DNA of 64,000 nt. Source: Paralichthys olivaceus (Eukaryota; Chordata; Actinopteri; Pleuronectiformes; Paralichthyidae). How positions within the stretch are numbered: the stretch's first letter is position 1; every line of letters starts with the position of its first letter. The notes beneath the pieces were generated by a model. It ran no database searches. It saw only the letters and a program-made list of their open reading frames with translations, and was not told the origin of the DNA. This document shows, piece after piece, positions 7,528 through 62,582 of this stretch. A program made the translations under genes and the position numbers. The DNA is taken from contig NC_091098.1 of NCBI RefSeq assembly GCF_024713975.1, positions 22,079,316-22,143,315 of the forward strand, read 5' to 3'.

Positions 7528-8950
7528 TCAGAAGTTCGCACTGCGTCTCCTCTCGTTCATCCAGTCCCCAGGGTTGACGTCCATTTGCAGCATCTTCATC
7601 ACCCACTTGTCCCTTCGTGCTCCATCGATGAACTCATCCAGTGAGAGCTCCCCTAAGTGATGAGGGATGGTTAGTCTCTGGGTTTATTTCACCACACAAT
7701 TCTCCTTTCATCAAACAACAGACATTAACACCCCACAAAGCCATTACAGCAGCCCAACTCTGCCCTTTTAAATCATCCATGCAGCGTTTTAAGCTGTCAG
7801 AAAACTAGGGAAAACACTCACCATCTCCATTTTCATCAACCAGCTCAAATATCCGGTCAACCACTTGGTCCGGGCTCAGCAGATTGCATTCTTCATCCAG
7901 CTGACCATGGCAAGCTTTCTTCAGTCGATAGATAGACTGAGAGTGACATGAGAAGGATGTTAGTAATACTCTTGCATGCTCGCTGATCTTGAAATATTAA
8001 TTTCAATGTCTTGGACACCTTAAATATCAAAAGGTGCATATAGTGAGGATAAATAGTAAATATTACCTCCACAATTTCAAGAAGCTCTGTTTTGTCAATG
8101 CATCCGCTTCCATCTTTATCGTACATTTTGAATGTCCATTTAAGCTTATGTTCCAGTTTACCCCTCAGGACCAAGTTCAAGGCTGCAACATACTCCAGGA
8201 AATCAATGGTGTTGTCCTGCAGTGGACATGAAGGAAAAACATTCAACTGCTGTGAAGAGACACCTGGACACGATCTCTGAGTTTCACTTTGACAGACAAA
8301 ATGTTTGTATTGTAAAGTACTTAATGGAATATACTCAGTAAAAAACACAAAATAAATGGGGCTGCAACTAAAATGTATTTTCATGATCGATTAATATTTA
8401 TAATACAATAATTGATCATTTTTGTCTCCGTGAATTGTTTAGTGTATCATCTGTCAGAAATATGTAATTGTTCTAATATATTATTTAACAGGACCCAGAT
8501 TTATTTTTATAATAGACTGCCAAGAAAAACTGTTAATATTTCAAAAGCTTTTTGCTTAAAAAGAAATACTCGACCCATCAACTATCAAAACTGATGCTTA
8601 TTTTTGTCTATTAGAAATAAATAATCAATAAACTGCTGTTATGACAAATGCTTCCAATCATTGAATCTTGACTATTACCATGATAAGTGTGTCACATACT
8701 GAAGTGAAGAGTCCTTTACTTCCACACAGCAGAAGCTTGTACTTACTCCGTTCTTGTCAAAGGCTCGAAACATGTTTTCGATGTAATCTGCAGCCTCCTT
8801 GTTCTCAGTGACGCCAAAAAAGCTCTTGAACTCGTGCCTGAAGAGAGTCCCACTCGGACACTCCACAACAAACTTCTTGTACCATTCCTGCAGCTCTGCC
8901 ACGTCAATTTCCTTGTCGGGGTCACTTTCCTCACTCAGGCGCTGACCCAT
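7528..8950 (-). CDS. guca1b: Guanylyl cyclase-activating protein 2 (GCAP2), four exons
   Basis: This is a calcium sensor of photoreceptor outer segments that activates retinal guanylyl cyclases when calcium falls after light. The exons are 8747-8950, 8067-8216, 7822-7936 and 7528-7652, joining in frame to 594 nt or 197 residues; human GUCA1B has 200. The N-terminus MGQRLSEE fits N-myristoylation. EF1 is degenerate, with the family's conserved [12 protein letters not shown] stretch. EF2 has [15 protein letters not shown]3 has [13 protein letters not shown] and EF4 has [13 protein letters not shown]. The C-terminal [16 protein letters not shown] is typical of GCAP2 rather than GCAP1 or GCAP3. 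AATAAA at 7337-7332 (minus) lies about 190 bp past the stop. It runs in the same direction as oard1, about 1.1 kb upstream of that gene's start. Confidence 0.95.
8358..8610 (+). repeat. Dispersed teleost repeat ('GGGCTGCAACTAA' family), degraded
   Basis: It starts with GGGGCTGCAACTAAAATG, followed by the GATCGATTAATATTT and ATAATTGATCA blocks and a CTGTCAGAAATATG block, the order seen in a very common fish repeat. It sits in guca1b intron 1. Related ends occur near 30160, 39580, 58970-59275 and 63830. Confidence 0.5.
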
Positions 8951-9504
8951 AGTGGAGATGATATTTCTCAGGCACCTCTACAGACTGAAATGATTTCTCA
9001 CATTACATGAAACTATAAGACTTGTTGAAACTCTTTGTTAGCTTCTCTCTCTACATTACAAAATCTATAAATCTCAGTCCTCCGTTACTGAGACAGGTGC
9101 TGCAACTAAATGTGTTGCAAATCGGCAAAAACCAAAGTGATCAAAATGGCATGAAAGTCCATACAGGCTGAATAATTATTAGGCTGTCTCTTCATATCCT
9201 CTCAGAGAGTGAGGATGACACACAGGATCACATGATAAGGGATTAGAAATGGAAATAGAAACGTGTCTTAATCAATTAGTTGGCAGACAGATAATGACTG
9301 GATTTCCCTGTGCCCCTCCCTCTATCTCTACTAAATAGTGAATGTCCTGTATTTTTCCTTTATAAAAAACAATCTCTTCTGTATTTTATACAGCATCACA
9401 GTGCATCCACCAAGGCTCAACAGTCCTCTTAGACTCAATTAAGCTGCACCAAATTTCCCACACTTAAACATATCAGTCCCCTATAATATGCCTGATTTAT
9501 ATAT

Positions 9505-30800: not shown

Positions 30801-33800
30801 ATGTGAATTCACTGTTCTATTCTGATATGCTTTTTCTTTGGATGATGCAGGTTCCAGTGTCATTGTCTGTGATGACCCCACCAGCAGAGGCACCACAGCA
30901 GCTTCAGCAGACCCCACAGCAACAGATCCTCAGTCCTCAGCAGCTCCAAGCTCTGCTCCAGCAGCAGAAAGCACTCATGTTACACCAGGTAATGTGTGTT
31001 TTATAAAAGCTTTGTGTGCATGTTTGCTCCCACTGGTTTTATTGTCAATAAACTTAAATATTCACCAACATTTCTGCAGCAACAAATTCAAGAGGTCTTC
31101 AAGAATCAGCAAGAGCAGCTAAATATGCAGTTGCTACAACAGAAGAATGCTGGGATTGTTAGCCAAGAGGTAACATTAATTCATTACAGCATTATTTTTA
31201 TCACTTCATGAATATTTGATTATTATATCAGTATTTATTATGCAGCCATGATAATCAACTCCTACTGAGTCTTTCTCAGTTCAGTAGCACTACAGGTTAA
31301 TGGATGGAATTCTTTAGACAATAACTGTAATTATTCTCATCGGGGTTAGGGTTAGTATCTTGTCCTGTCCTCGCCTGCTTTGAGTTTATTCTTCTAAGAT
31401 GCTTCACATGTTTAGATCTGACACGTAACTGCACCTGTGGTCTCACATACTTTAGTGCACACTCAAGTCCCAGCTATTGTCGTAACTCACACCTCAACTT
31501 GTGTGCATGTACTTTTGTCACCTCATCTGTCTTGACTGTTGACACACTTTGAAATTCTCTATCCACTTTCAGACTTAACTTGTACTTGCTATTGTTCACT
31601 TAACTGAAATCCAGGTCACACGAGTCAGAAAGTAGCTAAATGCACACGGCAGCAGTGTGAAATGTGCTCAGTGTGGTTTTTGTCCATTTAGATGAAAACT
31701 GAATTTCTTTGAGCAGTTTGAACACAAGCAAAGTACAGAAAGATTTTATTACAATGGTCGACAGAGAATATTCAACATAAAATGAGTGAAACAGTGAGCT
31801 TGTTTTATCTAAATAGCAACGTAAGCTCATTGATTGAACCTGACAAAGGCACATTTTCAAACCTACAACACATGTCCAGTGTGATGTTTAATGGTTCAAT
31901 ACAGGTTCTGTTATCTCATCCAGCTATGCTTGGTATGGAAAACAGAAATGGAAATCCACTGACTGACGTTCTGTCGTTTGTTCTGTCACAGCTGACAGCT
32001 CAGCAGATCGCCATCCAGCAGCAGCTCCTTCAGATGCAGCAGCAACATCTCCTCAACCTGCAGAGGCAAGGCCTGCTGTCTGTCCTTCCCACCAGCCCCA
32101 GCACAGCTCCAGGTATTCTGTCCTAAAGTTGTCACTGCATTTTCTTTTACTTTCAGGTTCAATGGTTGTAGTTCGCTAGTGTCTTGTTTGTCTTTGGGTC
32201 ACTTAAAGCAAACACTGCAAATGTGTACGTGCCATTTCAGGCTCTGAGAATGGTAGCATCCTGTCTACTAGTGGAGACACCAGAGAGTCCTCCGGTCATC
32301 AATCTACCCCCAATGGTCATCACAGTCTCCTGAAGAGGAAAGAAAGGTGCTTTAACATATACATAGAAAATGTTTCTGTCAATTTACCTTTATTTCATTT
32401 AAAAACTCATAAAGTCTAAAGAAACGTATCAGTTTCATCATGTTTCCTGAGTCTGGGATGGATCATTAATGTTGTCTTTGTTGCAGTGGGACAATGGATG
32501 AAAACACACAAACTAGCCATCCTCTGTATGGAAATGGAATGTGCAAATGGCCTGGCTGTGAGACTGTGTTTGGAGACTTTCAGGCTTTTCTCAAGTGAGT
32601 AGTCAAAGTTAACTTATTCACTTCTATCTGGACGTGCATTGAGACTATGAAGTATCTAATTATGGAAAAAATGCAAATTCGGAGGGACAAATTAAAGGAA
32701 AACCCTAAAAAGGAGAATCACCCTATTAAAAACCATTGGGAGATTTTGGACTGATGTGTCAGACAGTGCTCTGTGCAAGTTGTCCTGGCAGCTGGTGGTG
32801 GTTTAACACCCTGCTGTGACACTGCCTGTTGGTTTTCCTTTAATTTGTCACCTCTCAGTATGTTCTGTATTTTTCTCATAGGGTTTAATTATCACATCTT
32901 AAATTGGAGCTAAAAGAAATTGTGAAAATCTACTGATATGTACTTCTTACTTTTTAAATATTAAAATTATATTAATTTATTCTTCCAGCATGTTTGCTCT
33001 CTACCACACCTGTTGCCTGCACAGTAGTTTCCCTAAAGTATGTCATGATGTAAATTTGTTTCTGCAGACATTTGAACGGTGAACATATACTGGACGACAA
33101 GAGTACAGCTCAGTGTCGTGTGCAGATGCAAGTGGTTCAGCAGCTGGAATTGCAGGTATAAATTCAGTCTATTTCTCTTCAAGCTAATCCTTTAATATTT
33201 CTTTTTTATCTCAAACAAAAGGGACAGTTAACAGCAATTCACATTTATAAATATACGTATCCAGTCCTTTTCTTAAAACTACTGAAAAGTAAGTTTTCTA
33301 AAAACTCCAGGGAATGTCTGAATGTTTGCAAAATGTGTTTTCACACCAGCCCTGGAAACAGAAGTGATGTCTTCAGATAATTACACTTCTCTGGATGCCA
33401 GAAACAAACTCATTCCCACACTGAATGTCGTTTCATCATTTAACACAAGCCGTGAATTCTCTGACTCTCAACTTCTATTTCGGTCCTCTCATCTCACACA
33501 GCTGAAGAAGGACAAAGAGCGACTGCAAGCTATGATGGCTCATCTCAAGTCCTCTGAACCCAAACCCGCAGTGCAGCCTGTAAGTACCTGCCATGACTGT
33601 TTACTTCAATTAAAATAAATATTGTTTTGCTGGCACTTAAAGTGACGTTTTCCTGACTCGGCTACTTTGTGTTTTCAGGGGAATCTGGTGTCTAATGTGT
33701 CCTTCTCCCAGGCAACATTGCCCAAAGGCCTTCCTCCTATGAGCCTGTCTCAGAGTGCCACGGCACCGTCCACACCCCTGACGCCACTCTCTGAATCCCC

Positions 33801-36322
33801 TTCAGTCCTCACTCCCAATAGCATGTTCACTGGGACCCCTGTACGGAGGCGGTACAGCCGCTCAGTGAGCCAAGGTAACGGTGAGATCACGACAAACAAC
33901 TTTCAAAAATACATTTGTATTGCTGGTTTGAACTGAAACATGATTCTGGTAAGATGCACATACATGTTATTTCACATGTACGCTCATTTCATCTCTTAGA
34001 GTGATTTAAATCCTATCATATATCAGTTTCTTTCATAATTGGAAATGGTTCTTCTATGTTTCCAGTCTGTTCTGTCTGTGGATATGTATAAATAATGCTT
34101 GTTAATGTTTTTCCACAGATATAATTGATAACAAGGAGTTCTACTTGAGCACAGAAGTTAGACCACCATTCACATATGCCTCTCTAATAAGACAGGTAAC
34201 GTTTACCGTCCTTACTCAACACAGCCACAGAAATATTAAAACGCTGATGGAAACATGAATTCACAGGCAGATGTGCTCTTCATCTCTTTCAGGCGATATA
34301 CGAGTCACCCCGGAATCAGCTGACATTAAATGAAATCTACAACTGGTTCACGAGAAACTTTGCATATTTCCGGCGCAATGCAGCTACTTGGAAGGTACGA
34401 ACCTGTGAAATGTCCTTGGACATCAAAATGTGACACAGGAAAAGTGTTTTGTTGTGTTAAGATGTAACTAGGTTGATGCTAATTTAGTACTTCAGATGTG
34501 CACTGCTCCGGATCTAATTCTTTTCTTTCATCATCTTCTAGAACGCCGTCAGACACAATCTCAGCCTCCATAAATGCTTTGTACGTTTGGAGAACGTGAA
34601 GGGAGCCGTGTGGACGGTAGATGAAATTGAGTTCCACAGAAGACGGCCCCAGAAGACTGCTGGTAGTGGGTACGTGGACGTGTTCTCAGATAGAAAGTCT
34701 CTTCCCCGGCAGTATTTCACCTCGCAGGGACACACGTTGTGGATTCTTGGAAGAATTCGGTCGAACCAATGTGTGAAACATGATTTTGTGTGAAACAAAA
34801 TAGAGCCACCTCTTGTTTGTTTGCCATTTGCTCAAACCTACAAGTCGCACTAAGACTTTGGAACAACCGTGACCTCTCCCCTTGATACACCGCTATCAGG
34901 CGATCATTGAAAATATCATGTGAGGATTTTGTTTTGTCATGCTTTGTAACTATGACTCAAAACACTGACTCGTGTGGATTTCAAACAAACAGACCTGCGA
35001 TCACTGCTTCACAGTGTACAAGGCTGTTTGAGGGCTGCAGTAGACTGTGCACTGAAAGCCAGTAAACTGTATAAAGATGGATGATCACGGTTCCACCAAT
35101 ACACATAGTCGACCAACCATTTCAGTCTCAACCATCAATCGTGATGTTACTAGTTTTAAAAAAAATCAATTAACTAATTAACACCATTATTGGAAAAATG
35201 TCGTGAACGCACATCAGTGTGATGAGAACTGCTGAAATGACAGAAACCACCTCTGAGGAAACGGATTTGACTTTTTAGTTTGGCTAACATGGAGGAGGTG
35301 TGGTGCTGTCTATCTTTGTTTCCAGTCTACGAACCCGCCCTGAAGTATGACGTGGCTGTAATCTCAGGTGTCAACACATAGACCTAACTTGTTATAATGT
35401 ATTTGTGTCCTCACAGATCCATGCTGAAGAACTCTCAGAGCCGTCAGAGCTCAGCTCATCAGGTAAGAGAACATCTGTTGTTCTCAAGTTTGTTTATACG
35501 TCAGTGTCATTTAAATGTTTATAATAAGAGGCTGTTGCAGTGAAAGGTGGCTGCAGCTACATATGAAAACTGAGGACGTTTGTTTTTTCAGAGCGGTGGT
35601 CTGGACAGCTCTCACTACAGTTCAGCCTCCATAGGCAGCATCCCGCTGCACTCCCTGCCTCATGTTCTCCAAGAGCAGATGAACGGAGCCCTTGCGAATG
35701 GATCAGGATATCACAGTGACAGCAGTGCCACACAGTCCCCTCCGCAAGCTTTGTGAGTTTCACCTCCAGCCCTCTGTTCCCTGAGCTCTGCAGTGACCTG
35801 GTATTAGCGTCCACCCTGAGTGATCACACCACAAGTGGTCGGTTAACATATGTTAACGCCACAACAACGTGACCACCTCATAATGTCTGATACTTCGCTT
35901 AAATTTGTAAAATCATTCACAGCGCAGCTGGACAAGAATTCATTCAACCCCTTCTGACTCTCTCTGCATACAGAGCAGGAGACACACGCAGGACAAATTT
36001 AAATCCGGTGTCAGGTGTGAACAGATGCTGTTCACTCAGATCTCACAGGACGGATGTTAACACCAGGCCTTTGACTCAGTTACGGTTTAATATGCAATGA
36101 TGTGATTAAAAATCCTGATTGTGTGTGTTTTCTTTTAATCTGCATGGTTATGGAACCAGCATTAAAGAGGAGCAGGAGGATGAGGAGATATGTGAAAATT
36201 ACCCCTACGAATCTCCGGAGAGCACGGACGAGCACGGCCACAGCCCCGAGATGAACCAGGAAGAAGACAACAGCAGCCTAAGGAGGCACAATCTCCATCT
36301 GGATCGCATGCCTTCCCTCTGA
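27822..36322 (+). CDS. foxp1: Forkhead box P1, divergent teleost copy, 15 coding exons
   Basis: This is a transcriptional repressor. The coding exons are 27822-27947, 30851-30988, 31080-31169, 31992-32112, 32241-32346, 32487-32594, 33068-33155, 33502-33579, 33679-33874, 34119-34195, 34293-34394, 34542-34669, 35417-35462, 35592-35752 and 36160-36322, giving 1728 nt or 575 residues. There is a short Q-rich region ([17 protein letters not shown]). A C2H2 finger with [14 protein letters not shown] (about residues 205-237) is followed by a leucine zipper ([20 protein letters not shown]) that mediates dimerisation. The forkhead (about 360-445) carries [34 protein letters not shown] and [20 protein letters not shown]. 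It is about 100 residues shorter than human FOXP1, lacks the exon with ALQVARQLLLQQ, and has an unusual tail ([15 protein letters not shown]). The call rests on the finger and forkhead plus synteny with eif4e3, mdfic2 and mitf. The teleost a/b copy is uncertain; synteny with the gadusol locus suggests foxp1b. Confidence 0.9.
27948..30850 (+). other. foxp1 intron 2, no exon recognised
   Basis: In other vertebrates an additional Q-rich exon lies in this part of the gene. I looked for ALQVARQLLLQQ-like coding on the plus strand and found none. It contains a repeat end near 30155 and otherwise ordinary AT-rich sequence. Confidence 0.4.
30150..30330 (+). repeat. Degraded copy of the 'GCTGCAACTAA / GATTAATCAATTA' repeat
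   Basis: AGAGCTACAATAATTTGTTG, then ATTAATCAATTAGTT and the later ACTATTTTCTGATATTTTAT blocks match the order of the repeat also seen at 8358-8610. Strongly diverged. Confidence 0.4.
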
Positions 36323-37701: not shown

Positions 37702-38895
37702 ATGACAACTCCTTCAAAGCCTCCTGTGAATGATCAGGATTATATCAAGCTTGAGGAGCTGGGAGACCATGTTTCTGATGGTAGGTCGTTCAGTTTGTTC
37801 TGCTTCTGACTAGAATACTTCATGTGGTCCCTGACCAGTGTTTGCAGGAGAGTTTATTTTTTCCTGAGAAGCTGAAATAGACCCAAATAAATAGAATCTA
37901 ATCTTATCTCTTCTTGTTGAAGTTGTATGGAGCAAATATTTTCACTTCACATCTCACCTCCCAGACTTGATGTTAATTTTACCCTGACAGATACAATGCA
38001 ATGCAAAAAAAATATTCACAAATGGTTTCAGTATTTATGTTTATGAATATCAAAACTTACTCTTACATAAAAATCTGTGCTGAAAAGATCAGAATGTATG
38101 TTGACACCTTACAAAAACAATTATCTTTAGTAATTGTACTGATTGTTATAATCATATAATAATTTGTGCATCTGTTTCCTGCTTCTTCCTTTTCAAAGGG
38201 AATGACCCCAAACCAGTGACTGGCAGTCCAACCAGAGAGACCACAGGGATGTTCGGTGTTCTCCGCAGACCAAGCACCATCTCAGAGCTAGAGCTGGACA
38301 TGGTAGAGGCCGAGCCCAGCTCCCATGATCCCCTGGGGGGCAGTGAATTGGGCGGCTCCAGCTGCTCCATGTGTTCTGACATGTTTAAGAGCAGCAGCAG
38401 CCATTTGTCATCAGATGATTCATACCAGCCGGGCACTGGAGGTACGGTTAACTGCTCGAAGGTAGAGCAGCTGATGCAGTTGAACAGAAAATAGCATGAG
38501 AATGTTTTTCTAATCATTAACAACACTATCAAATCTTGATTCATGCTTAGAGGTGCGCCACATGACACCTTCAGAGATTTGAACTTCTCTCTTTTGACCT
38601 TTTCCTCTGTTCCTCCACGTCACCACCACCAGATGACTGCGCAGCGCTCCTGCTCGCCTGTCTGTACTGTCGTTTCCACGAGTTAATGGCCCTGCTACCG
38701 GATACCTGCGAGAGGGCAGTGAGCCGCTGTTTTCCCTCGTACAAAAACATCATGGCGGCCAGTGAGTGGGATGAGCAGGGACAGGACTGCTGCGGTCACA
38801 AGCTGGAGCTGGACTGTAACTTCTTTGAGTCCTGTAAGGACGCAGGCGACCTCGTGGAGCTGGCCATGGAGATATCAGAGGTGTGCTATCGCTGA
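37702..38895 (+). CDS. mdfic2: MyoD family inhibitor domain-containing protein 2, three exons
   Basis: This is a member of the I-mfa family (MDFI, MDFIC, MDFIC2). Members carry a C-terminal cysteine-rich domain that binds and restrains transcription factors; MDFI and MDFIC have also been reported as PIEZO channel auxiliary subunits. The exons are 37702-37780, 38199-38441 and 38633-38895, giving 585 nt or 194 residues. The acidic/serine-rich middle has TISELELDMVEAEPSSHDP, GGSSCSMCSDMF and SSSSHLSSDDSYQPGTGG. The I-mfa-like domain starts at about residue 108 with DDCAALLLACLYCRFHELM, then CERAVSRCFPSY, DCCGHKLELDCNFFESC, and ends MEISEVCYR. It has fewer cysteines than MDFI and MDFIC, as I recall for MDFIC2. 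Order foxp1-mdfic2-mitf is conserved in vertebrates. AATAAA at 39278-39283 may end the transcript. Confidence 0.85.
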
Positions 38896-39039
38896 AACGT
38901 TCCCCTCTGACCTGCGATGAAACAAAAATCACCACGTTATACATTCATTTAAAATGATGCTGCTCAACTGACATTTACTTTACACCCTCGTGTTTCTCAT
39001 GCTGCATATAACAGATAACTAGAGTCAGACTCAATAGAA

Positions 39040-39260
39040 ATAACACCTCCGCCACGGCCCGAAGAAGAAGATTTAAATTCGCCATATCCAGGTTTTCATC
39101 TTGATCTGCACCCAATGGCACACACTCATAAAAGCCAGTTCCCTAAATACTTCTTTCATCAAGATGATTCATGGGAAAATGGTGAAAATCTTTATTACAA
39201 AAAAACGCCCTATTTTGCGATGTTAAAGAAAGTGATAAAAACAAAATCCTGGATCTGTCA
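39040..39260 (+). repeat. Degraded dispersed repeat beginning CACCTCCGCCACGG
   Basis: It contains ACACCTCCGCCACGGCCC, a GATCTGCACCCAATGGCA block, CATGGGAAAATGGTGAAAAT and GATGTTAAAGAAAGTG. These are the same inner blocks, in the same order, as the 9505-9641 piece, so both belong to one family with inverted ends. Confidence 0.5.
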
Positions 39261-39574
39261 GGTCACGATACCATACAAATAAAAAAAACAAAGTACAAGT
39301 ATAAGACTTTACTCAATTCCACTTTTAATACCACATTAAAAAGTGAAACGGTCCAAGGTCACACAGATAAGATTGTTTTGACTTCATATTACCATAACAC
39401 ACAGTGCTGGTACATAAACGTATCTTAACATCAACATTATTAATACTCAATCTTAAATGGTCTCCCTACACATTCCTTATGTAGTTAATGCTTCTGGTTA
39501 TTTTCTTATTATTGCTTCACTTGTGAATACGATGCATTGGCTTCATTGTAAAAAACAAATATTGTGATGGTGTC

Positions 39575-39640
39575 CCTTTGGACTTTGTTAATCAGTGATT
39601 AATTAATCCATAATGATAATAATCATCAGTTGCAGTCCTT
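39575..39640 (-). repeat. End fragment of the 'CTGCAACT / GATTAAT' repeat
   Basis: GTGATTAATTAATCCATAAT, then AATAATCATCAGTTGCAGTCC is the reverse complement of the family's left end (compare 8358). Confidence 0.4.
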
Positions 39641-40243
39641 TAATGCATGACTTATAATAATCTGATGTAAAAGTACAACTGTCAGGACATGTTTCTGCAC
39701 GATTGAGTACTTTTACTTTTCCCATAGCCGATGCTTGCAGTGTCGTACCGGTTTTTACTTTACAGTATTTTTACAGTGTGGCATTAATACTTTTACTGAC
39801 GGGTGATTTGTTGCAGGAAGTGAAGCGAGTCTGTGGGGGTGTGAGAGAACCAGCACGTTGCTGCAGTCACAGATAAGTTCATTTTATAAGGAATAAGTTA
39901 CTTTAGCCGGCTTCAACATGTGACTGAACACAGACAAAGTCTTGAAAGGCACATATCACCTACAAGTTAGACCAGTACTTATGAATTAGTCCTGTCCCTC
40001 AGTTGCCAAATAAGTCAATGCAACTGTAGGATTACCTATAGGTACACTACAATATAGTATAAAAATACAATATAATATATTATTCCTCCAGTTAAATTCG
40101 CTCTGAACTTTACTTCAACTGTACTGCAGCCCCTTCCCCCTGTCACACATTCTCCACTGACATTTTACACGTATGCTATCCTTTACACGTCACACCACAG
40201 AGTAGGCTGAGAACATTTGGCAGCGCCGGGAGTTTCAGGGACC

Positions 40244-43200
40244 ATGCTTTCACCTAACGACTGCAGCCATTCACCACAGACCAGGTTTGATCTGGTCCAA
40301 GTGAAAGGTGCATGGACCAGACAGACGGAGCAGAGGCAGGTGGCAGAGGGAAAGTTAAGTGATGCTAAAATGTAAGTACTGAATTGAAAGCGATTCATGT
40401 CACGTGTTTAAATGATTATCGTGATTTAATGTGAGAAATTATTGTATATGCTCAATGGATAATTCCTTATTATTATTAATCATAATATAATAAAACTACA
40501 TTTATAATTTGTCCGTGTTAATTTTTCCACTGTCTGCTTCTTGGTTACATGTTCATGTTCCATAAAATGGGGGGGGGGGGGGGGGTGAAATACTTTTCTA
40601 TTTTAGGCTGAGGTCACTTACATGTACATCATGTACAGCAGCTGTGGGAATGAAATACAGGGCAACAGCTAAAAATATTATTTCTAAATATCGAGTCTCA
40701 CTATGAAAACTTTCAGGACAGGTTTGATGTTTTCAGAGATATTTGTATTTGTCTTTTTGTTTTGTTTTCCCTCTGCTCTGGTTTGAAGAGGGTTAGGGTA
40801 TTTATGTGCACCTGCAGGATTCAACAAACATTTGAACTTGAAAACATTTTGACCAAATTTTATCCACAAAACAAACCGACAGATTCAAGTTTTCCTTGAG
40901 TTGATGTACTTGTGTTCAAAGTTTTGTGTGATTAACATCAAAGCACAGAATCAAACCTTCAACCAAAGTTTATAACCTTTTGTTTTTCTTTTCCTTTTGT
41001 TGCTTTATCTTAAATTATCTTCAGCCATGAGAAGAAGTCTGAGCACGGAGTCTGCTGGACAGTGATCAGCCCCATTGTGTTCACCTACAGAGTCATTCAG
41101 TGCCAAAACATTCTGGATCCCAGAAATGACACTTTGCTGTGGGGTCATTTAGGAGACGAGGAGCTTAAAGGGACCGTAGGAAACCTCAAACCTGTGAAAC
41201 GTTTTATCGTCATTGATGAAACGGTCAATCGTCTGTATGGCTCTCAGGTTAAAAGTTACTTTGAGTCCAGAGACGTTGTGTATAAGATGCTCCCTCTGCC
41301 CACCACTGAGGAGAACAAGTGTATGGAGTTAGTGACCAAGATCCTGGAGGAGGTTCATGACTTTGGAATTGACAGGCGTTCTGAACCAATCATAGCCATC
41401 GGCGGTGGGGTTTGTCTGGATGTCGTGGGCCTGGTGGCGTCTCTCTATCGCCGGAGGACTCCGTACATCCGGGTGCCGACCACGGTGCTCTCTTACGTCG
41501 ATGCCAGCGTGGGGGCAAAAACAGGGGTCAACTTTGCTGGCGGGAAAAACAAGCTGGGAAGTTACGTCCCGCCGGTGGCAACGTTCTTAGATCGCTCGTT
41601 TTTCCAAACTCTTCCGATGCGTCAGATCAGCAATGGGATTGCAGAGATGCTAAAGGTTGTTGTTGCATCATCATCGTTGCGGATTGAAAAGAGTGTTTTA
41701 ACCTGATGGTCTTGCATGTGGAAGCCGACTGATGACCAAGTGTGTAAAAACTAACCCAGACGTTAAATCCACAGCCAGCAGCCTCTGTCACATTTGATTC
41801 ATTCATTTAAACTCTGAAGCCTGTGTGTCAATAACCTTCATAAACCTGAGAAATGTACCAAAGTCAAATCAGCCCTGTGTCTTCCTGACCGGGAGGAGCT
41901 TATTCACGCCTCAATCAATCAATCAGTCAATCAATCAATCAAATCCTATTGATGTAGCTCATAATCTGGATCTGCACTGATAAAGCACAAGGGCTCCTGG
42001 GAAGAAGTCAGCAACATGTATTGGTAAAACATTTACGTGATGAAGAGGAAGAGGAGGAAAGAGAAGCTCTGTGTCATATGTCCCACGACCATGTAGAGTT
42101 AGAGCAGCAGAACTAAGAGCTGGTCCAAAGCAGACGTGAACCAGCTCCAATATAATCTCTATCAAAAAGGAAGGTTTTATTTTAAAACCATTTCAATAAC
42201 TTAAAGCTCAGCACAGTTGCACACTTGCTCAAAACATGTTTTTATAGGAAAGATTTTTAATGCCTGATTTTCTAACTGGTTTGAATGGATGTTGTTTGTT
42301 TTTGAAATCTTCTTTCCTATTTTATTTTATGTTGTTTTATTCCGATGCATTTTGTGAGGCGCTTTGTTTTAGAAGCTACAGAAAGATGCTTAGTTGCTAT
42401 AGAAATAAAGTTTTATATCATTATTACTAACTTGCCCATGTTTGCAGAATAACTTCTGAGGCTGATATAGTTGCAGTTGTTGCTGGTATGGTAGAAAAAT
42501 AAATATGCTGATGATAAAATGTATGTTGTTGCAGAAACAACTTTCTCATTGTTTCTCTTCCACTTGTCTCCATTTAACTGCTGTCACTGGTCCATTTGAC
42601 CTCAGATGGCCCTGATGAAGCACCTCGGCCTGTTTCAGCTGCTGGAGGCCGAGGGCCGGAGGCTGCTGGACACCAAGCTGCAGTCGGACGGCACCAACAG
42701 CTCTGAACGCGAAGACAGTGCCACGGCATCCACCCGAATCGCCATAGAAACCATGCTGGAGGAACTGGCCCCCAACCTGTGGGAGGATGATTTGGACAGG
42801 CTGGTGGATTTTGGTCACCTCATCAGCCCCGAATTAGAAATGGTCAAACAGAAGCTTCTGTTATGTTTCAGTTTTTTTTTAAATTCTGTGGCCTGGATTG
42901 AGAATTATACAAATCCCTGTTTTTTCTGACTGCACAGAGAGTTTTACCAGCGCTGCTTCACGGGGAGGCGGTGAACATCGACATGTCCTTCATGGTGTAT
43001 GTGGCCCACCAGAGGGGGCTGCTGACAGCGGATGAGAAGGGCCGCATCATCCGGTGCATGCTGGGACTGGAGCTGCCCGTGTGGCACCAGGACTGCACCC
43101 TGGCCCTGATACAGAAATCCCTGCAGGAGCGTTTGAGGCACTCTGCTGGTTCTCTGAGGATGCCTCTTCCCACAGGTCTGGGACAAGCAGGTAGAGTAAC

Positions 43201-43410
43201 AGACAGAAAACCTGTCCGACAACAATCTTCTGGCTCGAGTAAATAATAACGAAACAAAACGTATCTCTAATATCAAAATTGATTGATGAACACTTATCTG
43301 ATCTTACAGAAATCTTCCATGACATGATGGAGGAGAATATCCTCAGCCGAGCCTACGAGGAGTGGACCGATGAGCTCGCTCCCTCTGGGAACAAATACAG
43401 TACATGTTGA
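40244..43410 (+). CDS. 2-epi-5-epi-valiolone synthase (EEVS), five exons, intact
   Basis: This is a sugar phosphate cyclase that turns sedoheptulose 7-phosphate into 2-epi-5-epi-valiolone, the first step of gadusol (UV sunscreen) synthesis in fish. The exons are 40244-40371, 41025-41655, 42606-42842, 42938-43190 and 43310-43410, giving 1350 nt or 449 residues, all open with GT-AG borders. The NAD-binding loop GGGVCLDVVG starts at about residue 169. VPTTVLSYVDASVGAKTG and NFAGGKNKLGSY follow. The expected zinc ligands are Glu250 (EMLK), His324 (DFGHLISPELEM) and His340 (LLHGEAVNIDM); their spacing of 74 and 16 is close to 77 and 16 in dehydroquinate synthase. There is no signal peptide, so it is cytosolic. 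Location between mdfic2 and mitf matches the known fish locus. The partner MT-Ox is not in this window. A G17 run (40569-40585) lies in intron 1. Confidence 0.95.
40400..40406. promoter_or_regulatory. MITF/TFE-type E-box TCACGTG in EEVS intron 1
   Basis: GTCACGTGT lies 29 bp after the exon 1 donor of EEVS. TCACGTG is the consensus for MITF, TFEB and TFE3 as well as USF. A second, weaker CATGTGA box lies at 39917-39923 upstream of the TATA-like element. Binding is inferred from motif only. Confidence 0.4.
40569..40585 (+). repeat. G17 homopolymer in EEVS intron 1
   Basis: An uninterrupted run of 17 G on the transcribed sense. It can in principle form G-quadruplex structures and its length is likely variable between individuals or reads. 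Confidence 0.8.
41911..41946 (+). repeat. (AATC)n microsatellite
   Basis: A short CAAT-type tetranucleotide run (TCAATCAATCAATCAGTCAA and following) in EEVS intron 2. Confidence 0.8.
42335..42425 (+). repeat. Fish repeat tail (GCGCTTTG...AATAAAGTTTTAT)
   Basis: GAGGCGCTTTGTTTTAGAAG, a GTTGCTATAGAAATAAAG block and TTTTATATCATTATTA correspond to the common 3' end of a dispersed fish retroelement. It lies in EEVS intron 2. Confidence 0.45.
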
Positions 43411-44100
43411 AATACATTTAGCATTTCTGAGCAACACATGTTGATTAAATGGATCATTTCAAACTATAATTTAGTTGCAAGCAGATTTCATGGTTTGCAA
43501 ATTGCTAATGATGCATGAGAACCCACAAGTCCTCCTGTGGAGGTTTTATACACACATTCTGCCTGGACCGTTCAGTAAAACATACATGTATTTATATGAA
43601 ATACGACTCTGGAAAAAACAGAAATCATCTTTACTTTAGTTTTGTTCATGTTCCATCCACTAACAAGGAGGAGGCAGGGTTTACGAACTACACTCCAGCC
43701 AACCACTAGGTGGCGATCAAGATGTTTTTGGCTTCACTTTTTGGGAGCTGTCTTGTCGGCCATCTTTAAGAAAAGTTTCGATGGTTATAAATGCTTGGTG
43801 AGAATGATGAGATCTCAGCTGCTGTGGATGAAAAACAAGAGCTCCACCAACCTTCAAATAAAACTTTTAATATTTCTCACGACATCGTTTCCACATCGAG
43901 TACCAACGAGTTTGAGCTCACTAATCTGAAACCAGTGCGTACAGTAACAATTGCTACATTCATGTCATATAAACTGTAACATTAAGAACAGTAGCATCAT
44001 CAGCAGAGTCGTATGAACCACAGAGATGAGAACGAGCACAGGTCTGAAACAAGACAACAGGATTCTTCATTAGTGGTTTACGCCATCGTAATAACTAACA
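43411..44100. other. EEVS 3' flank
   Basis: The likely EEVS 3' UTR is followed by repeat sequence. A candidate AATAAA lies at 43857-43862, downstream of the repeat fragment. No coding sequence was seen. Confidence 0.35.
43670..43775 (+). repeat. Fragment of a dispersed percomorph repeat
   Basis: CACTAGGTGGCGATCAAGAT, then TTTTTGGCTTCACTTTTTGG and TGTCGGCCATCTTTA form a string repeated widely in fish genomes, often next to genes. The element class is unknown to me. Confidence 0.45.
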
Positions 44101-47100
44101 GTCGGTGTATTCATGGAGAAATCAGTGATGGCTTTAAATCATTTGCCGTCACCACCGCAGCCACTGTGTGTGTGTGTGTGTGACGCTGATGTTCACTCTC
44201 ATCAGTCACATTTCAGGGTTTGGATGATTTATCAGTTTCCATTAGAGTAAAAGCTGATCTGGGTTCAGTGGAAGGGGCCAAGTTACAGGTCAGGGTGTGT
44301 TGCAGCGATAAGGCTCGGGACTGGTGCGATCGTAAAGGGCCACTTATCAAATCAACATCTCTCCAGAGCTTTCAGGTCATGGTGTTCATCAGCGTCAGAT
44401 GTGACAACACAAATATTGTCATCATGCGACTGAAGATTCACATTAAGGTCATGTGATGAAGACGATGCGGCTGACAGCTCAGGGATCAGTCACTAAGTGG
44501 ATCTCCAGCTCAGATTATTGCTTGCTCACAATGTTTGAGCCTGGGTGCCATCATGTTGTAGGTTTTTTTTTTACTCACGAAGCAGAAACACAGAAACAAA
44601 GGTGCTTCACATCAGTGGTTTGTATCTGTTCATATCTTTATATAAACTTGGAGATTTGGCAACACATTTTTTGGCAGTTATCACCTTGAACTACATTCAC
44701 ACTAGTCTCAAAATTAATATTCAGTACAAACTTGGAAAAAAAACACTTTCTTCAGAGTAGAGTTTGACCTTCATAAGGAAAAAAACACAAAATGCACAAA
44801 CAAAATATAAAGAGCTCCAAATGTTTCTATGCTGAATAAGGAGGATTTTGTGAAATAAATAATCAGAACGTAAAGGAGAATTCTTTTTTTTGCAGTATTT
44901 TTAAATAAATTGTTGTTTCATCATTCTTATTTTCATATCAACATTTCCCCCTGATCAAAAGTTTCATGACAATGATGATATGAAATAAAAACAGACTTTA
45001 AAAGGCACTTTAAAATAAATGTTTCTTTACTAAATAAATACAACTCTGCTGCTGCTGCTATGGGAATAAGAATGATACATTAACAATGAACAATGATCAA
45101 TAGTCATAACTTAAGAATTTAGTGGTTTAATTGCATATTTTACTCTCTTTACTTTTATGATGATTGATTTCACAATGCTCCACCTATTTATTTTCTACTG
45201 AACACTTTGGTCTTGTGGTTTTTTTAGTGTGTCGTATACTGTATTGCTCTCTAAGGTATAACTCAGCGCTCCGCGGGTTCATCCATGAAGCACCAAACAA
45301 CAAAATAAACATCCACACAAAGTTGCATCATCAGGGTAAAATAAATGACTGTAAGGCACTTAAATTAATTAAAAAAGATCATCACTTTGTTTTAGACTAA
45401 TTCATGAGGAGATCACATTGTCGAGCCGTGACGCTGCTCTACAGGCACAACTTCAGCCATTGCATAGTTGGAGGCTGTGCTGTAACAGGGCTCTCAATGT
45501 GCGGCAGGTAGTTGTTAACGAAGGCGAATAAAAGCAACGTGTGAAAACCGCTCAAATGTACAACAACCGCACAACTTGAAGAATATACAATCTCATACAA
45601 TATTGTGTTTGCATTTGAAAAAACCCAAATACAATAGTTAGTTTATGCTTAGATACAAAAAAAAAAAGAAAACAGGCAAACAAACCACGTTTCGGTTTAC
45701 AGAGGTCGTTCCAGTGTTTTTGACAATGTCATGCATTTCATACAAAATCCCAAAGCTGTCTCCTTATACTCCGTTGCAATATAAATGTTCACATAATGGA
45801 AAAAAACAACAACATACTGAATGTGAAATGTCATCGCAGTGGTGTAAAAACAAAAACACAACAATAATTTAGGAAATGAATGGACCGTTATAAAAACTAA
45901 GAATCAATAGTATGACGATGTACTGTGTGTACTGAAATAGCATCAATTTCACCAGCTCTGTTCGTCTGATTCCTACAGACAAGAATATCATAAAAAACGG
46001 AACTGATTCATCTTTAATAAACACATCAAATATTTGTAGAATTATGTAAAAACTTGTGACAGGAGTGAAGATTCTATACGTTTTGAGAGGTTTTATTGTA
46101 AAAAAAACTTAACTTAAAGTATTTCAGTGGATTTGGCAGCGAGGAATGTTTTGGCGATGTATCTGGTGCACACTGCCGGGTCAATCAGCACTGGGTGGTG
46201 AGGCAGGCGTTGGTGAAACTTGACCTTTCTCTATCGTTCATCGTGCATCATCTCAACATTATAACACTGAATAAAAGGGTCAAATTAACTTTCACTGACG
46301 CTGATTTTGTTCATTTCAATTATCAAGGAGGAGACTTTGTTTTTTTAGCTTCAGATCGTTTATATTTTTGTGCTTTTATTTAATTACCTCAGGCTCTTTT
46401 AAAAGCCTTATTATAAATTAATTTTTTAGGGGAATGTGTACATAAAGGTACATAAAGTCCTGCTTACATAGATACATAAATAAGATCAAATCTACAAAGG
46501 ATTAATATTTGTCAGGAAGACATTTCAACTGGAAGACTGACGAAGACTAACAGCCAAAACATGTGCATAGCAATACAACATCGATGTCTACACATCTCAA
46601 TAAGGCATCAGCACATTCAAGTTCAATCTAAGACACAAGGAGTGTAAAGCACTATAGTAATAAATAGACTTTTTTTTCTTCTATTATTGCTAATGATTTA
46701 AAAAGCAGTGTTCATCTCACCACAAAATATCTACACGTCATGATTTATAACTTCCCTAGATTCTTTGGAATCAATAGAAATAAACATAATCTAGCGTCTA
46801 TCCAAAGAGAAATGCATATATATATATATATATATATATTTTTAAATACAAAAAAAACGTCTACTTTTGTACCTCATTGTCATCAAAGTATTGATTAAAG
46901 CAAACAGACTTTAAAATCAGTCTTTGAAATCAAGGGCTGAAAAGACAAAGATATAACAAAAAACACAAACCCTAACAAAATGAAGAAGACTCAACGCATG
47001 TAAACAAAAAACAAAACACAAATGAGACAAAGAGGACAGCGACTCCAGCAGCTGAGAGCGAGTTAGCTGCTGAAGGGAACAGATGCAGCAGGATGTAGTT

Positions 47101-47135
47101 GGAGATGCAGGTGAGCAGTCTTCCAGTAGGGGGTG
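44101..47135 (-). other. Likely mitf 3' UTR and EEVS-mitf tail-to-tail spacer
   Basis: No gene on either strand. Minus-strand AATAAA hexamers occur at several places, for example around 46379, 46096 and 45191, so the 3' UTR may be 0.8 to 2.6 kb. An (AT)n run lies at 46814-46840 and a GT run at about 44164-44182. miR-137-type seed matches on the mitf sense strand lie at 46684-46691 and 44515-44522. A miR-182-type 8-mer lies at 44655-44662. Confidence 0.5.
46814..46840. repeat. (AT)n microsatellite in the mitf 3' region
   Basis: About 13 AT units, about 300 bp beyond the mitf stop, followed by a T run. Confidence 0.85.

Positions 47136-62582
<15,447 letters not shown>

Follow-up and report, generated by a model that had tools for sequence, protein, structure and literature searches.

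The stretch of DNA analysed here (the window) comprises 64,000 nucleotides of the Paralichthys olivaceus contig NC_091098.1 and carries, in this order, an EF-hand gene (minus strand), PPP4R2 (minus), FOXP1 (plus), MDFIC2 (plus), EEVS (plus) and MITF (minus). EEVS is one of the two genes of the gadusol cluster; the other, MT-Ox, encodes a protein in which an NAD-dependent oxidoreductase domain follows a methyltransferase domain (PMC4426668). The EEVS gene of the window is intact, and an intact MT-Ox is not present at its locus, so that the two-gene arrangement with MT-Ox adjoining EEVS is not found.

The EEVS gene is encoded in five exons, which together comprise 1350 nt (449 codons and a stop codon) without internal stops. 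Exon 1 (40244..40371) runs from the start ATG up to a gtaagt donor, exon 2 (41025..41655) encodes the DHQ_synthase N-terminal domain, exon 3 (42606..42842) carries the FGH ligand segment close to its end, exon 4 (42938..43190) holds the LHGEAV ligand and H400, and exon 5 (43310..43410) ends with TGA. GT-AG borders are seen in all four introns, with weak or unusual donors in introns 2 (GTTGTT) and 3 (GTCAAA), that is, at two of the four donors. GC content reaches 65% at third codon positions versus 33-38% in the introns, a contrast which makes the model look like a coding gene. A short TCAA array in intron 2 was the sole product of a tandem-repeat scan of 38-48 kb.

The predicted protein matches the Pfam families PF01761 (2.8e-32) and PF24621 (2e-17), and its best match in the PDB is the bacterial EEVS ValA (4p53, E 3.2e-96), ahead of a runner-up at 5.1e-64 among 16 matches; the top NCBIfam model is aroB, with 192.6 bits under a cut-off of 305. 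Identical residues account for 167 of the 376 positions aligned with ValA, an enzyme of the bacterial validamycin pathway, and E250, D321, H324, P328, H340 and H400 are the same as their ValA counterparts, including the metal ligands. The first-pass annotation, which had described EEVS as open over five exons with the expected ligands, was therefore correct on this point. The equivalents of D281 and H360, which we take to distinguish EEVS, are likewise common to ValA and the protein of the window. A comparison at 31 selected sites gave 20 that are the same and 11 that differ. Animal EEVS proteins are reported to match ValA at 14 fingerprint sites (PMC4426668). Adjoining a metal ligand at the end of exon 3 (residues 324-328), GHLISP is found versus GHSFSP in ValA. 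With EEVS as a single-protein query, which detects close relatives only, no relative was confirmed in the collections genome_contigs (18 pattern-matched stretches) or viral_contigs (4).

The MDFIC2-MITF interval (38896-47135) was scanned against Pfam in all six frames, with stops read through and E-values up to 1, and the regions on either side (23.9-38.9 kb and 47.1-62.1 kb) in six frames with E-values up to 0.1. No MT-Ox domain emerged from these scans of 23.9-62.1 kb, neither in the MDFIC2-EEVS spacer (38896..40243; 1348 bp) and the EEVS-MITF spacer (43411..47135; 3725 bp) nor beyond them. Within the interval, DHQ_synthase, DHQS_C, Fe-ADH_2 and Fe-ADH were matched, all on EEVS exons, in addition to three weak matches (E 0.02-0.3), all below cut-offs. 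The two Fe-ADH matches, oxidoreductases by name, were considered as a trace of MT-Ox and rejected, given that they sit on EEVS exon 2 and are also obtained with the EEVS protein itself. The scan of 23.9-38.9 kb returned Forkhead, FOXP-CC and MDFI only, and that of 47.1-62.1 kb returned MITF-type domains and one match below cut-off. Regular expressions for a COMT-like motif I, for IDADK and for an SDR loop had zero matches over all 64 kb; positions 1-23.9 kb and 62.1-64 kb were covered for MT-Ox by these expressions alone. As a positive control, EEVS exons 2 and 4, but not the other three, were detected by the raw-frame Pfam scan, so that a short isolated MT-Ox exon or an old relic could escape detection; none was recognised at the locus by the Pfam scans and regular expressions. 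The window contains no N bases, and hence no marked gap. These results bear out the earlier statement that MT-Ox motifs are missing from both spacers and from the rest of the window, and the assembly gap in either spacer that had been named as its possible undoing is not marked.

A comparison of 12 teleosts describes two clusters at this neighbourhood, the first being foxp1b-mdfic2-mt-ox-eevs-a-mitfa-frmd4Ba and the second, without mt-ox, foxp1a-eevs-b-mitfb-frmd4Bb (PMC8294118). By its text, zebrafish alone among the 12 lacks the second cluster, the eevs gene of either type is split into five exons, and mt-ox occurs in one copy in each fish, with two copies in climbing perch according to a table note; eevs and mt-ox were taken from NCBI annotation for 11 species (PMC8294118). 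The premise of the first-pass annotation, that the FOXP1-MDFIC2-MITF interval of fish should carry MT-Ox, thus fails for the second (b) locus. The window shares with the eevs-b cluster a five-exon EEVS between FOXP1 and MITF without an adjoining MT-Ox; it differs in carrying MDFIC2, and no FRMD4B was seen in it. Compared with the zebrafish gadusol cluster of EEVS (LOC100003999) and MT-Ox (zgc:113054), it has the same EEVS family and the same flanking genes, but lacks MT-Ox at this locus (PMC4426668). Another lineage-specific change at the same neighbourhood is reported for catfish, where EEVS and MT-Ox are both said to be gone (PMC6173838), whereas the EEVS of the window is intact.

The flanking genes bear on which of the two clusters the window represents. 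MITF lies on the minus strand, with exon 2 to the C-terminus at 47136..53376 (bHLH, DUF3371). An open exon B1b is found at 62342..62563, with 71% identity over 77 positions to the human exon, and a diverged exon-1M-like start at 54379..54411, 1 kb upstream of exon 2, encodes 11 residues followed by a gtatgt donor. The M start exon reads MLEMLEY in the human protein, and no exon 1M was detected when a strict match to MLEML was required; the idea that exon 1M was missing altogether was dropped after a scored search had revealed the diverged 1M-like exon. The B exon is reportedly a mark of mitfb. With B1b open and the 1M-like exon diverged, MITF may be of the b type, by a rule (B1b retained, M start exon degenerate) that draws in part on secondary passages. 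Among these passages, one fish mitf paralogue is stated to retain one alternative exon and the other paralogue the other (PMC5306129), and Mitfa is described as M-like and Mitfb as A-like (PMC9363479). The pairing of a diverged 1M-like exon with an open B1b could in itself represent alternative-exon decay after gene duplication.

FOXP1 (32518..35753, plus strand) is likewise diverged; its model comprises the zinc-finger/coiled-coil, forkhead and part of the C-terminal exons, with the 5' exons and the last exon outside it. A version of FOXP1 lacking the zinc finger was discarded when tblastn detected this element. The forkhead shares 76 of 86 residues with the FOXP1 chain 2kiu, as many as 2kiu shares with the FOXP4 chain 6xat; two of the 2kiu differences are presumably engineered sites, which shift both counts alike. 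Other fish FOXP1 copies are much nearer to the human protein, and the divergence seen here fits a faster-evolving duplicate. Together with the open B1b and the diverged 1M, it makes the window resemble the second cluster. MDFIC2 (37702..38895, plus strand) encodes an MDFI domain in three open exons (37702-37780, 38199-38441 and 38633-38895), read by eye and summing to 585 nt as an untranslated join. Beside PPP4R2, a piece of the EF-hand gene at 7893-8390 on the minus strand matches EF-hand, while a second piece (8675-8977) gave nothing in Pfam; we take the gene (7893-8977) to resemble a guanylate cyclase activator. The window yielded no Rfam match and, with ARAGORN, no tRNA.

On these grounds we consider it probable that the window is the b copy carrying EEVS-b, that its own MT-Ox was lost after the duplication, and that EEVS-b and the MT-Ox of the a locus make gadusol together. 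Several points weigh against this interpretation. MDFIC2 is open and has its MDFI domain, yet no mdfic2 is listed for the b cluster (PMC8294118). Either this small gene was missed in the published b clusters or it was retained by this fish; given its presence, membership in the b locus is likely rather than settled. In zebrafish, EEVS is described as tail-to-tail with MT-Ox and as the one nearer to MITF (PMC6173838), which implies the orientation opposite to that in the window, where EEVS points toward MITF and these two genes stand tail-to-tail; an inversion at the b locus, which may have accompanied the loss of MT-Ox, could explain this. With a 1M-like exon still there, the exon argument is one of degree. 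The score of this exon was matched by none of 500 simulated introns when a start codon and a donor were required, conditions set after the match was seen, and without them a stretch at 58051 (minus strand) scores equally. The variable exons of mitf are, moreover, placed at the 3' end in one of the sources on which the rule draws (PMC5306129). The two-cluster description also has inconsistencies of its own: Table 5 has a third mark for mangrove rivulus, seemingly in the eevs column, so that the figure of 11 of 12 fishes may be 10, and the text credits all 12 with two eevs copies, contradicting its own statement on zebrafish (PMC8294118).

Some of these same observations would be expected if the window were instead the a locus, from which MT-Ox, but not EEVS, was deleted or carried off by a local rearrangement, with gadusol either lost or made by a relocated MT-Ox. 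The position of MDFIC2, between FOXP1 and EEVS, is that of the a cluster (PMC8294118), and an orientation of EEVS unlike that described for zebrafish (PMC6173838) is what an inversion and a deletion would give. However, neither a diverged 1M with an open B1b nor a diverged FOXP1 would be expected of a mitfa/foxp1b copy, and we regard the a locus as unlikely. It is more doubtful still that MT-Ox was lost from the whole genome while a functional EEVS was kept, its product having a fate other than gadusol. The intact coding sequence and a window without a detected MT-Ox would agree with such an orphan enzyme, but no other biosynthetic gene was found beside EEVS in the scanned interval (38896-47135), and mt-ox is said to occur in the 12 fishes compared (PMC8294118). 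An assembly misjoin or collapse that took MT-Ox out of the sequence is very improbable, as the window is free of N and the order and strands of PPP4R2, FOXP1, MDFIC2 and MITF agree with the human order.

Returning to the b copy, the missing local MT-Ox is most likely the ordinary, described state of a duplicated locus. Of the three options that the first-pass annotation had left for MT-Ox (moved, lost or elsewhere), the last is best supported by the b-locus features and the published clusters (PMC8294118). If the window is the b locus, MT-Ox is expected in trans at the sister locus, and there is no need to assume a new fate for the EEVS product. We propose that the neighbourhood was duplicated in the teleost whole-genome duplication, the window representing the foxp1a / eevs-b / mitfb side, and that the MT-Ox copy of the b locus would have been lost afterwards, as in the b clusters already described. 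EEVS-b would then cyclise sedoheptulose 7-phosphate to 2-epi-5-epi-valiolone (EEV), which MT-Ox from the unlinked a locus would convert to gadusol, two EEVS genes thereby feeding one MT-Ox. Genes for enzymes of the same pathway do not have to be neighbours. The chemistry of EEVS and MT-Ox has been demonstrated for the zebrafish proteins (PMC4426668), and the production of EEV by EEVS-b with completion of gadusol by the a-locus MT-Ox is the most likely route on our analysis. The b-locus identity, an MT-Ox elsewhere in the genome, the activity of the enzyme and the sharing of one MT-Ox are all what we infer to be most likely.

What appears to be a broken gadusol pathway would thus be explained by genome duplication, and an eevs-b cluster without mt-ox has already been described in the comparison of 12 fishes (PMC8294118). 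If the genome truly lacked MT-Ox, EEV would have to take on a new role in a vertebrate. The question left over is why teleosts should have two EEVS genes for one MT-Ox, an arrangement which may let the first step be controlled tissue by tissue or through gene dosage.

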